From the IMG/VR virus record IMGVR_UViG_3300017917_005257, positions 1 to 23,525 of that record: 23,525 nt of DNA. The stretch is one strand, 5' to 3'. How positions within the stretch are numbered: the first letter of the stretch is position 1; the number at the start of each line of letters is the position of its first letter. Under the pieces are notes generated by a model. The model saw only the letters and a list, made by a program, of their open reading frames with translations, did no database searches and was not told the origin of the DNA. Origin of the DNA: a virus. Of the stretch, positions 10,369-20,125 are shown one piece after another. Made by a program: the position numbers and the translations under genes.

Positions 10369-10812
10369 TTAATTTACTTCGTATTCATCAACCTCTGTAT
10401 TAGGGTCGATTGATTTTTGATGATCAATTGCAAACTGTTTGTTTTGTTTTAAGAACACTTGTCCATCGCTTGAAATGAAAAACAATTTATTATCGGGGTA
10501 CGATTTTAAATATGGTTTCATCAACTCATCTAATTTGCTTTTGCCTTTGTTGATAGCTGGTGCAGGTGTTTCTCCCTCTACAGGTGTTACAACTGGAGCA
10601 GGTGTTTCTCCCTCTACAGGTGGCACAACTGGAGCAGGCGTTTCTCCCTCTACAGGTGCTACAACTGGAGCAGGTGTTTCTCCCTCTACAGGTGCTACAA
10701 CTGGAGCAGGTGTTTCTCCCTCTACAGTTGGCACAACTGGTGGTGGAGTTTTTGTTGGCTTATTTTTTATGCCTGTAGCATTTGGAGTTCTTTTATTAGC
10801 TGACTTTGCCAT
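10369..10812 (-). CDS. Repeat-containing hypothetical protein with Pro/Val linker (147 aa)
   Basis: A 147-residue protein with three parts: a basic N-terminus (AKSANKRTPNATGIKNKPTK), a linker built from five tandem copies of a 12-residue unit (EGETPAPVV followed by variable xPV), and a C-terminal ~60 residues (KLDELMKPYLKSYPDNKLFF, then FLKQNKQFAIDHQKSID). The C-terminal part may be the folded domain. The linker has the composition of a flexible or stiff Pro-rich spacer. It sits between the sheath and the endolysin gene, 10 bases from the latter, with no homologue I can name. A virion decoration or cell-wall-spanning role is conceivable, but I would not assign function. Confidence 0.6.
   Translation of the reverse strand: MAKSANKRTPNATGIKNKPTKTPPPVVPTVEGETPAPVVAPVEGETPAPVVAPVEGETPAPVVPPVEGETPAPVVTPVEGETPAPAINKGKSKLDELMKPYLKSYPDNKLFFISSDGQVFLKQNKQFAIDHQKSIDPNTEVDEYEVN
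10565..10744. repeat. Five tandem 36-bp repeats inside a coding region
   Basis: Copies start at 10565, 10601, 10637, 10673 and 10709, a strict 36-base period. Each begins GGTGTTTCTCCCTCTACAG (GGCG... in the third) and ends in a variable block ahead of ACAACTGGAGCA. Because the unit is a multiple of three, copy-number change would keep the reading frame and lengthen the encoded EGETPAPVV linker in 12-residue steps. Copies differ at few bases, mainly in the third codon of the variable residue, suggesting recent expansion or gene conversion. Confidence 0.9.
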
Positions 10813-10823
10813 ATTTTTTTGAA

Positions 10824-11315
10824 TTAAATTTTTACGTAATTAGTGTTTGGTATTAGAACTTTTCTATTAAATAGATTTAATAGCTCACTAACACTTTTGC
10901 CAAATGTTTTTTGAAAGTGTGGTTCATCTTTAAATCGCCAATCGCCACCCCATTCCCAACCATACTGTTTAAAAATGGCTACTACTTCCATCCAGTCGCT
11001 TATGTTATCCTGATCAAAATCTTTTTGGGAATCCCAACTAGCAGTTTCGTAACTACCATTGCCATCGGTATCTACCAATAAAACAATATCAATTGCCAAA
11101 CCATAGTTGTGGTAACTTCTACCACCTCTTGCATTGGTTACTTTGGGCTTTTTATTAAACAAAGCATCTTGCTCTGCAAATGTTCTGAAGGTGTGAGAAA
11201 AGCGGCATAATGCTTTGCCTTTTAAAGCTTCGCATATCTCTTTATAAATAGTCTTTACTTCATCTCTAACTTTAGGATGCAGCATTTCTATTCTTGCAAG
11301 TGTTAGCTTATCCAT
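10824..11315 (-). CDS. M15-family peptidase, phage endolysin
   Basis: A 163-residue metallopeptidase of the VanY/M15 type. The zinc-binding signature SYHNYGLAID (residues 67-76) supplies His69 and Asp76, and EWGGDWRFKDEPHF gives the second histidine (His133) with Asp/Glu at 130-131 as catalytic base. Peptidases of this group cut the L-Ala-D-Glu or D-Ala-D-Ala bonds of peptidoglycan. Between the two metal motifs lies an insertion with two acidic loops (DTDGNG at 82-87 and DFDQDNISDW at 99-108), likely Ca2+-binding. There is no signal peptide, so export needs a holin. It overlaps the spanin-like gene by one base, and the holin-like genes follow upstream, forming a lysis cassette. Confidence 0.9.
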   Translation of the reverse strand: MDKLTLARIEMLHPKVRDEVKTIYKEICEALKGKALCRFSHTFRTFAEQDALFNKKPKVTNARGGRSYHNYGLAIDIVLLVDTDGNGSYETASWDSQKDFDQDNISDWMEVVAIFKQYGWEWGGDWRFKDEPHFQKTFGKSVSELLNLFNRKVLIPNTNYVKI

Positions 11316-11815
11316 TAAGAAAATATTTTTTGTAAGAAGCTTAATATTGGTTTCCTAAAAACAATTACATTGATTATAATTGATATTGCTAGCACCCATA
11401 ATAACCATTTAGGTATATAAGGAACTTCCACATCAACATTTACATACTTTGTTTCTATACGTGTTTTAAGGCTGTACTTTTCTTTGATTAATTCAGCTTC
11501 TAACCACTCAACTCTTTTTTGTAAACTGTCTTGTTTACAAGTTGCTGTTAGCTTGCCATTTTTTATTCTTACTGTAGCAGTAAGCTTACCTGTTTTACTG
11601 CTATCGGCTGCATAGTAATCTGGGCATGGCAAAGTATCGTAAATGGTTACTTGCTCTCCGTCTATATAGATAACTTTTTCTTTAGGTATATAGGTAACTC
11701 TTTCTACAATGCTATCTCTGTAAACAGTTTCTACAGTTGGTTGTAGTTTTTTACTACAGCCTATGCTTAATAACATTGTTAATACTACCAATAACATTAA
11801 AAAAATTGCTCTCAT
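11315..11815 (-). CDS. Spanin-like lipoprotein with C-terminal transmembrane segment (u-spanin candidate)
   Basis: The frame could start further upstream, but the ATG at 11815 gives MRAIFLMLLVVLTMLLSIGC, a lipoprotein signal with Cys20 as the lipidated residue, and I choose it. The protein is 166 residues. After Cys20 comes a periplasmic domain containing a likely coiled-coil (DSLQKRVEWLEAELIKEKY). Then comes a hydrophobic segment (WLLWVLAISIIINVIVF) at ~136-153, followed by a basic tail (RKPILSFLQKIF). An outer-membrane lipid anchor together with an inner-membrane C-terminal helix is the design of unimolecular spanins such as T1 gp11, which fuse the two membranes at the end of lysis. Neighbours are the endolysin and two holin-like genes. 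No homology is established. Confidence 0.7.
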   Translation of the reverse strand: MRAIFLMLLVVLTMLLSIGCSKKLQPTVETVYRDSIVERVTYIPKEKVIYIDGEQVTIYDTLPCPDYYAADSSKTGKLTATVRIKNGKLTATCKQDSLQKRVEWLEAELIKEKYSLKTRIETKYVNVDVEVPYIPKWLLWVLAISIIINVIVFRKPILSFLQKIFS

Positions 11816-11819
11816 ATAA

Positions 11820-11984
11820 TTACTTATTTGCGTCTTTACCAGTAACTCCAATCCATACAGCACCAATACCAATAATTGTAATTGCTTCTGTACTATCAAA
11901 TTTGCCAACCCATAATCCAGCAACTCCAGCAAGTGCTATTAAAGCTCCAATTACAGTTTGCGGACTTTTAAGCCAATTTTTCAT
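11820..11984 (-). CDS. Holin-like small membrane protein (54 aa)
   Basis: This small gene encodes 54 residues from ATG 11984 to TAA 11820. It begins MKNWLKSPQTVIGALIALAG and has a second hydrophobic stretch, AITIIGIGAVWIGV, separated by a short polar loop with KFDST. The C-terminus is charged (GKDANK). Two membrane helices, small size and position directly before the spanin-like and endolysin genes (gap 4 bases to the spanin start) make it a class II-like holin or antiholin candidate. Its ATG overlaps the stop of the upstream holin-like gene by one base (TAATG), so translation is probably coupled. Confidence 0.65.
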   Translation of the reverse strand: MKNWLKSPQTVIGALIALAGVAGLWVGKFDSTEAITIIGIGAVWIGVTGKDANK

Positions 11985-12151
11985 TACTTCTTTTTTAGCT
12001 TTTGATAAATATTAATGCAGTTATAAACTATCGTACTTACTCCTGCAAGTATGGCAACTGTAGTAGCTACATCGCTTTTGCTTACATGCCCAATCCAACT
12101 AAAAAATATTGTACAGGCATAGCCAATAAGGCTTTTAAAGTCTAACCACAT
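11984..12151 (-). CDS. Holin-like small membrane protein (55 aa)
   Basis: Starts at ATG 12151 and ends at TAA 11984-11986. The 55-residue product has two probable membrane segments: LIGYACTIFFSWIGHV at ~8-23 and VATTVAILAGVSTIVYNC at ~28-45, then a basic tail (YQKLKKK). This is the usual holin make-up: two helices, a short loop and a charged C-terminus. It is the first gene of the lysis cassette after a hairpin at 12180-12201, and it shares a base with the next holin-like gene. With two such proteins in tandem, one may be the holin and the other the antiholin or a modifier; sequence alone does not say which. Confidence 0.65.
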   Translation of the reverse strand: MWLDFKSLIGYACTIFFSWIGHVSKSDVATTVAILAGVSTIVYNCINIYQKLKKK

Positions 12152-12237: not shown

Positions 12238-12630
12238 TTACTCATCTTGCCTACGCAAATAAGCTAAGGTTAAAGTACTTTTTTGTGTTCCTGTACTTGG
12301 ATACCAAGCTCTATAACTATTATAGTTTGTAGCAGTAACTGTTACAACTTTGGTATTAAATGATTGATCAGTATTCACCAGGCTATCAATGTTAACCCAT
12401 TGGCTACCATCAATAGTTCCTTGTAAGTAAACCTTGCTACCAACCGTTCCACTAACTTTTTTAACTGTAATTTGAAAGGCTTTTAATTTACTTTTCATGT
12501 TGGCTACTTGTACAATTACAGTATCAGCATTGGTACTGGTATCGGTACTAGTAATTACAGTGCTATAACTTTGAGCATTTACTGTAAATGATGCAGCAAT
12601 AACAATTGCTAATAAGAATAATTTTTTCAC
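12238..12630 (-). CDS. Small secreted beta-rich protein in the head gene region
   Basis: A 130-residue protein with a clear Sec signal peptide: MKKLFLLAIVIAASFTVNAQ, with cleavage likely after VNAQ at residue 20. The mature ~110 residues are beta-rich (LKAFQITVKKVSGTVGSKVY, then DGSQWVNIDSLVN and a TVTATNYNSYRAWYP strand), with the layout of a beta-sandwich domain such as occurs in decoration or carbohydrate-binding proteins. It lies just downstream of the major capsid protein, with terminator-like hairpins on both sides, so it may be a head decoration or fibre protein. The Sec signal is unusual for that role; an alternative is a secreted prophage cargo protein. No family is recognised. Confidence 0.7.
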   Translation of the reverse strand: MKKLFLLAIVIAASFTVNAQSYSTVITSTDTSTNADTVIVQVANMKSKLKAFQITVKKVSGTVGSKVYLQGTIDGSQWVNIDSLVNTDQSFNTKVVTVTATNYNSYRAWYPSTGTQKSTLTLAYLRRQDE

Positions 12631-12705: not shown

Positions 12706-13713
12706 CTACTTTAAAATTGCACCTGCATACTTGCCTCGTAAGCTGCTTACTAATGCTCTCATTTGAAAGTTGAATTTATCTCCTTTAATATCTGGGTCTT
12801 TCAATGCACTAAACATTTCAACTGTACCTTGTGCTTTCATTACTTCATTGGTTAAGAAAGAGAAGGAACTGTTCTTATGTGTACCCTCATCAAATGCAGT
12901 ACCGTAAGCTGCTTTTACACCTGTAGAACCTATGTAAATTGGATTTTTTGTGTAGGTAAATACTTTGAATCCATAGTACATAGCATTGTTTTCTGCCATA
13001 ATACTTTTGTACAATACTTTATCTTCTTTTGCAATAGCTGCCATGTGATCGGCACACAATACAAGTATTCTACCGCTTCCATCTTCATCGCAGTTGTTGT
13101 AGTGTTTTTGCAAATCAATGATTGCATCAATTACACTATCGTTTGCACCTAAGTTTAATACCTCATTAAAGTTGCCTGTACTTTTTTGAGTTGGGGCATA
13201 AGCAAATGCGGCATCAACACCTAATCTTTTCATTAAGGCTTTTTTATGCTTGTTGGCATATAAGGCTCTTTGGTCATATACCAATTCAATTGCAATAGCG
13301 TTTTGAACAATAGTACTATCGGTATCATAGTAATCTAATTCAATTGCTTTAGGTGTGTCTGCTGCAACTGTACTACCAATAGGGTAAGTAGTATTGTTTT
13401 TCATTACTGTTGGGTCAGCACCAGCCTCTGCGAAATTGATTTTATCGTTATTTACTAAGCTACTCATATCGGTAGAAGCAGTTAAAAAACTATTGGCAGG
13501 GTAAAAATCTTCTTTTACCATTGGAATCCATACCTCAGGAGCTAATCCATCAAATAAGGCAACCCCATTATGCTTACGCATTAAATGTGTTGATGCACCA
13601 GCAACTAACAACAGCCCAAACGTTAAAACAAGTGGAGCTTGAAAGAATGCAGATAACAAGATTGCAAATGCTGCAATTGCTAAAAGGTTTAAAACTAATT
13701 TTGAAGTCTTCAT
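12706..13713 (-). CDS. Major capsid protein with hydrophobic N-terminal hairpin
   Basis: A 335-residue protein in the position of Mu gpT. Residues 50-335 look like a phage capsid protein: FDGLAPEVWIPMVKEDFYP near the start, an AIELDYYDTDSTIVQNAIAIEL segment, a YDQRALYANKHKKALMKRLG helix, ILVLCADHMAAIAKEDKVLY and a final MRALVSSLRGKYAGAIL. Residues ~5-45 hold two strongly hydrophobic stretches (VLNLLAIAAFAILLSAFF and PLVLTFGLLLVAGAST) with a short turn and a basic flank (MRKHNG), like a membrane hairpin. This region may be a membrane-targeting pre-sequence or a scaffold-like delta domain removed by the protease encoded just upstream. Neighbours are protease/scaffold on one side, decoration-like protein on the other. 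Confidence 0.8.
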   Translation of the reverse strand: MKTSKLVLNLLAIAAFAILLSAFFQAPLVLTFGLLLVAGASTHLMRKHNGVALFDGLAPEVWIPMVKEDFYPANSFLTASTDMSSLVNNDKINFAEAGADPTVMKNNTTYPIGSTVAADTPKAIELDYYDTDSTIVQNAIAIELVYDQRALYANKHKKALMKRLGVDAAFAYAPTQKSTGNFNEVLNLGANDSVIDAIIDLQKHYNNCDEDGSGRILVLCADHMAAIAKEDKVLYKSIMAENNAMYYGFKVFTYTKNPIYIGSTGVKAAYGTAFDEGTHKNSSFSFLTNEVMKAQGTVEMFSALKDPDIKGDKFNFQMRALVSSLRGKYAGAILK

Positions 13714-13780: not shown

Positions 13781-14713
13781 TTATTTGCCTGAGTATCTTA
13801 CACCTTTTTGATAATCTTGTGCAAGCTGCTTATACTTTTCAGGCTCTTCAGAACGAATGCGTGCTAACTCTACAGGATTTTTCTTTTGTAAGTAGTCGTA
13901 AGTATTTTTTTCATCTTCCTCACCTTCCTTTTTCTTTTGAATTAAAGAGCTAAGCTTTACATCTTTTTTTACAGTTGTTTCAACTACTTCAGTAGTTTCA
14001 ACCACTTTATTTGCTTCAGCAAACTTTAAAGCTTGTAGTGGGTTGGTTTTACTAAGAGTTACAAAAATTTCTTTTGCATCTTCTTTAATATTCTGCTCTG
14101 CACCACTCAAAATATTTGTTCTAAACTCGTTACCTTGTTGAACACTTAATTGAATAGTACCTATAGCAGCTAGGATTTCATTTTCGGTTGCAGTTTCTGC
14201 CAATCCGAGCTTTAAAGCAATTGCTTTCATATCAGTGTGTGTTTTTAATAATGGAATAAAATTTTCTGTGGTTGAATTAAGTACTACTACACTTTTTTCT
14301 CTTCTTAATGCCATTGCATTTTGATTACCAGGAAGAGGAGTTATAGAAGCTTCAAATAATTCACAATCAATTAGTGTAGGTCTTGTTTGACCTGTAAGCA
14401 ACAACATTGGGTCTTCACTCCAAGTAATTGGATCAGCACCAACACTTGCACCTTTAATGTCTCCGTTTTGAATTTTTCTGATGTATTCTTTTTCCTCATC
14501 GCTTACTCCTTCAATCACTAAATCTGCTAACAGCTTTACACCTTCAACTCTTAAATTTTCCCAATGTCCTAATGGCACTTCCCATGTACGATGATCATAA
14601 AAGCATGGCAAGTTTCGTTTTGCATTTTCCAAACGAATACCAGAGGTTATGATTCTAAAACCATAACTGTTCACTGCTTCATCGCTTAATACAAATGTTT
14701 TCTTAAATGCCAT
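13781..14713 (-). CDS. Head maturation protease fused to scaffolding domain
   Basis: A 310-residue protein. Residues ~1-150 resemble a prohead serine protease: NLPCFYDHRTWEVPLGHW with candidate catalytic His41, IKGASVGADP with Ser90 in a G-x-S-x-G context, and LFEASITPLPGNQNA supplying an acidic residue (Glu121) in the motif usual for HK97/U35-type enzymes. Residues ~160-310 are helical and highly charged (KKDVKLSSLIQKKKEGEEDE, then a YDYLQKKNPVELARIRSEEP run), like an internal scaffold. Fusion of protease and scaffold occurs in phages where the protease digests the scaffold after assembly. It is the first gene of the leftward late block, with its ATG facing the divergent intergenic region. 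The catalytic residues are predictions from motifs. Confidence 0.75.
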   Translation of the reverse strand: MAFKKTFVLSDEAVNSYGFRIITSGIRLENAKRNLPCFYDHRTWEVPLGHWENLRVEGVKLLADLVIEGVSDEEKEYIRKIQNGDIKGASVGADPITWSEDPMLLLTGQTRPTLIDCELFEASITPLPGNQNAMALRREKSVVVLNSTTENFIPLLKTHTDMKAIALKLGLAETATENEILAAIGTIQLSVQQGNEFRTNILSGAEQNIKEDAKEIFVTLSKTNPLQALKFAEANKVVETTEVVETTVKKDVKLSSLIQKKKEGEEDEKNTYDYLQKKNPVELARIRSEEPEKYKQLAQDYQKGVRYSGK

Positions 14714-18760: not shown

Positions 18761-20125
18761 ATGTGTAATATTTGCGATGAAAGATTTTTTTTGAGCCGTA
18801 AACAACGTGTTCAACTTAATAGAGAGTTGAATATTGACGATGTTGTAAATACTGCTATTGATCAGCTCTATGATGATAGGGTTATAGATGAGGCTACAAA
18901 AAAACAATTATTGCAAACACATTATGAGCCTTTAAAAATTGCTGTTGAAGAAGGTTATGGCAAAAAGCTTTTTAACATTGAATATGGCACACCAAACTAT
19001 GAGTTTTTAAAAAACTTACAAACCAATACAGCAGTATTTGCATCGTTCAAAAATCATAGCTCCATTAAAGAAATGGTTGCATTGTTAAAAGATGCTGATG
19101 GCAACTTAAGAAGCCGTGATAGCTTTAAACAGGAAGCCCTAAAAATTGATGCAAATTATCGTGGTAGTAAATTAGACGCTGAATATGATACAGCCGTAAG
19201 ACAGGCACGTATGGCGGCAAATTGGCAACGTTATGAAAAGAATAAAAGGTTGTACCCAAACCTTAAATACATTCTTACAAAAGCTGCCAAACCCGATGAA
19301 AAACATTTGCAGTATGTAGGTATTATTCGTCCTGTTGATGATCCATTTTGGAACACACATTATCCACCCAATCGCTGGAGGTGTCAATGCTCTGTAGAGC
19401 AAACCGATGATGATGCTACTGATATTCCTGATAATTTACCACCAGTACCAGCCGACTTTTCTTTCAATAGTGGCAAGCTTGCACAAATATTTGATATTAA
19501 AAACAGCGAATACATTAAAGCCGCTTCTCCAAAAGAACAACCAAGTTTAATAAAAGCAGCTAAAAAATTAGTGGAGAATGAAAATGCTGTAAATGCACCT
19601 TATCAAAATTTATATACAGGCAAATCAACTGGCAATGTAGTAGAAGTACACCCTTTGTCATTCAAGAATAATAATGATCTTGATGTTGTGCAAAAAGTAG
19701 CCAGAGAATTAGCCAATTTTAAAGAAGGTCCAAAAATTACTCAAATATTGCCTACATTATCAAGCAAAGCTCAAAGGGAAATTTTATTGCCCGATGCTTT
19801 TAAATTAACTTCTCCTGATTATAGATTAGAGGGCAGATTATTTGATTTAAAAGTTTTTAGTGGCAATGCTCCTGGTAAAGAAACTATCGAAAATCAAATA
19901 AGCGAAAGTCATCAAAAAAATGCTGGAGCAGTGCTATACTTTCCTGATGATTATAATGTAACTGAATACCAATTATACCAAAAAATAAATAATAAGCTTC
20001 ATAGGAAAGAATATCAAGGTTTTGAAATGTATATTAAGTTTAAAGGCAATTGGAAATACTATACACAATCTGATTTCAAAAAAATGGTTGATGCAAAAAA
20101 AATACCTCTTCCGAAGAAGAGGTAG
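18761..20125 (+). CDS. MuF minor head protein fused to a C-terminal CdiA-type nuclease toxin domain
   Basis: A 454-residue protein. Residues 1-215 are the MuF (SPP1 gp7/Mu gpF) part: helical N-terminus, AVRQARMAANWQRYEKNKRL at ~145-163, YVGIIRPVDDPFWNTHYPP at ~185-203, and the Cys motif RWRCQCSVEQ at 205-214. Residues ~235-300 form a linker. The last ~150 residues fit the CdiA C-terminal tRNase/PD-(D/E)XK pattern: LPDAFKLTSPDYRLEGRLFD followed by LK, giving D353...D362-x-K364, then KETIENQISESHQKNAGAVL. MuF proteins are injected with phage DNA, and fusions to polymorphic toxins are known in temperate phages. No immunity gene is adjacent. Tandem TAG stops and a hairpin close the gene. MuF identification is strong, the toxin assignment moderate. 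Confidence 0.75.
   Translation: MCNICDERFFLSRKQRVQLNRELNIDDVVNTAIDQLYDDRVIDEATKKQLLQTHYEPLKIAVEEGYGKKLFNIEYGTPNYEFLKNLQTNTAVFASFKNHSSIKEMVALLKDADGNLRSRDSFKQEALKIDANYRGSKLDAEYDTAVRQARMAANWQRYEKNKRLYPNLKYILTKAAKPDEKHLQYVGIIRPVDDPFWNTHYPPNRWRCQCSVEQTDDDATDIPDNLPPVPADFSFNSGKLAQIFDIKNSEYIKAASPKEQPSLIKAAKKLVENENAVNAPYQNLYTGKSTGNVVEVHPLSFKNNNDLDVVQKVARELANFKEGPKITQILPTLSSKAQREILLPDAFKLTSPDYRLEGRLFDLKVFSGNAPGKETIENQISESHQKNAGAVLYFPDDYNVTEYQLYQKINNKLHRKEYQGFEMYIKFKGNWKYYTQSDFKKMVDAKKIPLPKKR
20103..20124 (+). other. Perfect hairpin at the end of the MuF-toxin gene
   Basis: TACCTCTTC (20103-20111), loop CGAA, GAAGAGGTA (20116-20124): nine perfect pairs, overlapping the first of two tandem TAG stops. 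There is no following T run, so it is probably not a terminator. It may slow ribosomes, stabilise the mRNA or mark a recombination junction. Confidence 0.5.

Follow-up and report, generated by a model that had tools for sequence, protein, structure and literature searches.

Why should the coat protein of a Mu-like phage begin with a segment that looks as though it belonged in a membrane? The question is raised by a 23,525-nucleotide stretch of viral DNA (IMG/VR record IMGVR_UViG_3300017917_005257, positions 1 to 23,525; hereafter the window). The window is that of a Mu-like Bacteroidota phage and also encodes a Mu-type portal, a Mu F-like protein and a DUF2586 sheath. An earlier note on this DNA described two hydrophobic stretches with a tight turn at residues ~5-45 of the major capsid protein, and offered two explanations: prohead assembly on the membrane, or a pre-sequence that the phage protease cuts away. 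The features relevant to this question are the following:

12706..13713 (-), major capsid protein ORF, 335 aa, HK97 fold (phrog_267 match; AF2 model compared with solved capsids)
13642..13710 (-), hydrophobic helix 1, residues 2-24 (AF2 helix; family consensus MK[K/R]...N(82%)...G(84%))
13633..13641 (-), tight three-residue turn, residues 25-27, QAP (AF2; family turn G(85%)..P(68%))
13567..13632 (-), hydrophobic helix 2, residues 28-49 (AF2 helix)
13531..13566 (-), low-confidence linker from hairpin to shell domain, residues 50-61 (AF2 pLDDT)
13546..13557 (-), predicted cleavage motif L53-F54-D55↓G56 (residue counts from the alignment of 190 long forms; point at which short forms begin)
12709..13530 (-), shell domain, W62 to last residue, common to hairpin-less relatives (W62 conservation; alignment to mature capsids)
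13781..14713 (-), prohead protease (S78-like) with a C-terminal scaffold-like region, candidate cleavage enzyme (PF04586, E 4.9e-05; phrog_80 and phrog_328, head maturation protease)

The identity of the capsid gene, already assigned as such in the earlier note, is upheld by both sequence profile and modelled fold. Residues 44-334 match phrog_267, the PHROG major head protein (E 1.2e-14), and all 67 aligned members of the family match this profile over the shell domain. The AF2 model of the body has the HK97 fold, with VIA-align Z scores of 13.7-17.6 in alignments of roughly 210-280 residues to solved capsids and encapsulins, and Foldseek also groups it with HK97-fold capsids. The nearest solved relative, both by sequence profile (E 8e-11) and by Foldseek, is the capsid protein of cyanophage A4 (9jwb), whose profile match starts at its residue 19 and leaves no room for a hairpin. 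The closest relative found, L172 from a Chitinophagaceae genome, is 75% identical, and W62 is kept in 132 of the 135 distinct homologues of the first alignment. The contrast with gpT-type capsid proteins that had been drawn initially was misplaced: Pfam searches gave no match to a Mu capsid family for the window protein at E <= 1, nor among its 67 relatives at E <= 0.01, and the protein lies nearer to cyanophage A4/T7-like capsid proteins. The annotated capsid protein of Hankyphage does not match this capsid family and has no hairpin.

Positions 13560-13713 (-) hold the codons for residues 1-51 of the 335-residue ORF, and the two stretches and their turn proved accurate to within a few residues when examined by AF2 and Kyte-Doolittle hydropathy. 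In the model, helices 2-24 and 28-49 are predicted with pLDDT of about 88-97, confidence drops in the linker (mean 53 for residues 51-60; linker block means 53 and 57), and it is high again in the shell body; these figures come from an alignment with 67 homologues, the single-sequence model being poor. With a low-confidence linker between a confident hairpin and a confident body, the hairpin looks like a separate unit loosely tethered to the shell. Mean Kyte-Doolittle values are at least 2.17 in each of the two most hydrophobic N-terminal 15-mers, and the best 19-mer there reaches 2.58, versus 0.99 in the capsid body. A similar N-terminal score is found in just one other of the 29 predicted genes of the window, the spanin-like ORF at 11315, which scores hairpin-like only from its long TTG start.

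A hydrophobic leader could be an artefact of gene calling, with the protein starting downstream and the hairpin left untranslated, for instance from the internal ATG at residue 45 of the window ORF. This methionine, however, is missing in L172, the hairpin pattern holds in about 190 distinct sequences, and over 36 close pairs the hairpin has a pooled dN/dS of 0.30 and the body one of 0.10. Neither a non-coding leader nor a mis-called start would yield such values. The hairpin is therefore translated and under purifying selection, and we rejected the downstream start as having a negligible chance of being correct.

The hairpin is not peculiar to this phage; it is spread across Bacteroidota phages. 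Several hundred relatives were collected by scanning viral contigs and bacterial genomes, and 209 distinct complete ones were compared. The length of the segment ahead of W62 is bimodal among them, with either 7-15 residues (n=19) or about 44-74 (n=190); one of the 19 short forms, L011, is in fact a frameshifted long form, in which the hairpin (L011:3972) is apparently present but disrupted through sequencing error or decay. The survey of related capsid proteins that the earlier note had suggested gave a uniform answer for the long forms: two hydrophobic segments, both scoring at least 1.2, were found in 121 of 121 measured, compared with 5 of 626 body pieces of the same size. The hairpin consensus comprises the asparagine and then glycine of helix 1 and the G..P turn (frequencies listed above), followed by G-A and N in helix 2 and by P-x-G-[A/S]-L-x-[A/E]-G ahead of the shell domain. 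The share of long forms is higher in the pattern-based set than in a random draw of genomes. Two unbiased draws of Bacteroidota genomes (296 and 395) yielded 23 family members, 11 long and 12 short, and 10 of the 11 long ones have a clear hairpin; the hairpin is therefore common but not universal. The trait may extend beyond this subfamily, judging from sequence: more distant capsid proteins (L271-L276), some of which do not have the conserved tryptophan, also carry hydrophobic N-terminal segments.

On a tree of shell domains, the distribution of long and short forms requires 11 changes, at least eight of which are forced by well supported branches, so that loss or gain of the hairpin, cleanly bounded, has recurred among these phages. 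Since short forms manage without it, the hairpin is not needed in all lineages. Its repeated loss or gain provides natural comparisons of close phages with and without the hairpin; L149 (without) and L198 (with), whose capsid genes are close (support 100/96), form one such natural pair. A hairpin-profile search for a second copy in 11 short-form phage or viral records, several of which are fragments, retrieved nothing, and the same search of two short-form host genomes gave no match. The profile matches only capsid N-termini, in long-form records.

What would such a segment do? Its charges offer a first indication. Per sequence, lysine and arginine together number 1.53 on average ahead of helix 1 and 0.69 in the linker, but only 0.05, 0.02 and 0.06 in helix 1, the turn and helix 2, respectively. 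Charges distributed in this way follow the positive-inside rule and predict that both ends of the hairpin, and with them the shell domain, lie on the cytoplasmic side; a pair of hydrophobic helices so charged is what is expected of a helical hairpin of the inner membrane. A rough insertion scale rates helix 1 as strongly insertable and helix 2, in many relatives, as marginal. The idea that proheads are assembled on the membrane is supported to the extent of this hydrophobicity and charge pattern, from which we infer insertion of the hairpin in the inner membrane.

The second indication is the position of the hairpin. The capsid body aligns with chains modelled only from residue 104 in HK97, 163 in T5/DT57C, 89 in the gene transfer agent GTA and 114-115 in HTV1. 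Because the precursors of these proteins have N-terminal regions that are missing from the modelled chains, the hairpin lies at the place of a propeptide. Across the 190 long forms, the junction with the body carries the motif L(74%)-x-[A60%/E18%]-G(92%), with a variable P1 residue (A, E, S or D), and short forms start MA[L/G]xKEIW, that is, at the G of the long-form L-x-[A/E]-G. An extension ahead of a mature body and an adjacent prohead protease gene are both what a cleaved propeptide would entail. As for the proposed removal of a pre-sequence by the phage protease, the bimodal lengths, the starts of the short forms at L-x-[A/E]-G, the alignment to mature chains and the adjacent protease all speak for it, and cleavage is what we infer from them. 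The two alternatives that the earlier note had set side by side fit together as steps of one model. Other ideas were abandoned. Occurrence of the cleavage motif within the proteases themselves (1.89 per protein versus 1.43 after shuffling) was too weakly enriched to be used as supporting evidence. The hairpin does not appear to be tied to the type of protease, as S78-like and ClpP-like enzymes occur with both forms, in a typing by regular expressions that left many proteases unassigned. Finally, long and short forms have protease-scaffold genes of similar length, which makes it improbable that the hairpin substitutes for a scaffold.

We lean modestly towards reading the hairpin as an N-terminal propeptide, hydrophobic and cleavable, by which the coat precursor is held at the inner membrane while the prohead assembles and which the protease encoded alongside then cuts off. 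This propeptide would comprise the first ~55 residues of the major capsid protein. Its two helices would enter the inner membrane of the host and leave both termini of the hairpin in the cytoplasm. Coat precursors, or the earliest of them at any rate, would collect at the membrane and be built there into a prohead, together with the scaffold and protease from the neighbouring gene. That protease would then cut the linker at L-F-D↓G, between D55 and G56 (L-x-[A/E]↓G in the family), thereby freeing a mature subunit of ~280 residues, and the hairpin would be discarded. Insertion, cleavage and a role in assembly are thus the predicted parts of the model.

Other fates of the hairpin can be envisioned. 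It could be kept in the virion, packed in or on the capsid, which would account for its conserved positions and for a linker devoid of a strict protease consensus. This we regard as improbable, since homologous proteins without the hairpin exist, solved relatives align from their mature N-terminus, and hundreds of greasy hairpins exposed on a soluble capsid would be unlikely. Alternatively, the propeptide could be cleaved without ever having been in a membrane, serving inside the prohead either as a greasy core or as a domain with chaperone-like action, in effect a hydrophobic version of the delta domain. It does occupy the position of the delta domain, and its conserved Asn and Gly positions suggest specific helix packing. 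Nevertheless, the protease gene already has a scaffold-like region in both forms, and a turn nearly free of K/R behind a K/R-rich N-terminus is what is expected of a membrane hairpin; we thus consider the internal core rather unlikely, though a stronger contender than retention in the virion.

Geometry bears on the membrane-anchored propeptide as well. Propeptides of HK97-fold proteins face the interior of the prohead, which makes it difficult to place the hairpins of all subunits in one flat membrane and poses a puzzle for the model. Only a part of the subunits could sit in the membrane, the prohead could enclose or shed membrane, or the hairpins could form a greasy protein core. In its most far-reaching version, the model would make every coat subunit a two-helix integral membrane protein in a large group of tailed phages, with the prohead formed on or around the inner membrane and freed by the protease; this we advance tentatively and hold to be somewhat doubtful.

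How does this compare with known systems? The delta domain of HK97 gp5 and the propeptides of T5, GTA and HTV1 are likewise N-terminal extensions ahead of a mature HK97-fold body. Those are scaffold domains of a polar or coiled kind, about 100 residues long or longer; the window protein instead has a hairpin of two hydrophobic helices, about 55 residues in all, with a scaffold-like region encoded separately beside it. It therefore departs from a delta-domain scaffold, which would be polar and helical and would replace a separate scaffold, in being hydrophobic. In phage T4, gp21 cuts a 65-residue N-terminal region off gp23, and proheads begin on the inner membrane (PMC9958956). T4 thus shares with our model an N-terminal capsid region removed by a prohead protease and proheads started at the membrane; its contact with the membrane, however, is made by the portal gp20 with gp40 and YidC, and not by a transmembrane hairpin on the coat protein. 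The homologous capsids of the Winoviridae phages Peternella_1, pippi8-1 and FPSV-S27 bear the same kind of hairpin, although they are distant from the window protein (26-27% identity for Peternella_1). These are cultured, infectious phages, as described in the consulted parts of PMC8776804 and PMC7077304, which do not mention the hairpin. Cleaved N-terminal propeptides and membrane-started proheads are hence already known; for an HK97-fold coat protein bearing a transmembrane-like hairpin, we found no earlier description in the open-access literature, most subscription journals being outside the scope of the search. If the model holds, membrane-associated head assembly, which T4 achieves through its portal, would extend to the coat protein itself, and many Bacteroidota phages, including gut prophages in Bacteroides, Prevotella, Parabacteroides and Alistipes, may build their heads from membrane-anchored coat precursors.

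The lysis genes of the window bear on a last reading, in which the hairpin, freed or not, would serve as a holin-like lysis peptide coupling head maturation to lysis. With two helices and both termini in the cytoplasm, it would resemble small holins. Yet the window has two separate two-helix ORFs of 54-55 aa beside a spanin-like gene and an endolysin, which renders such a role for the hairpin unnecessary and, in our opinion, very improbable.

These and other neighbours of the capsid gene deserve brief description. The two small ORFs, of 54 and 55 aa, are adjacent (11820-11984 and 11984-12151, -), contain hydrophobic stretches and are candidate holins; an M15-type endolysin is encoded near them at 10824-11315. 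The spanin-like ORF (11315-11815, -) resembles a unimolecular spanin in combining a lipobox-like N-terminus (LLSIGC) with a hydrophobic helix at its C-terminal end; its start is better placed at the ATG at 11815 than at the listed TTG (11932). The ORF immediately downstream of the capsid gene, 12238-12630 (-), encodes a 130-aa protein with a signal-peptide-like N-terminus (KKLFLLAIVIAASFTVNAQ), and small signal-like proteins are found near this position in some other loci too. A 147-aa protein (10369-10812, -) contains tandem repeats of about ten residues (VEGETPAPVV). Lastly, the Mu F-like head protein (18761-20125, +) carries a C-terminal CdiA_C-type domain (PF18451, E 3.8e-08), in a fusion resembling MuF toxins.
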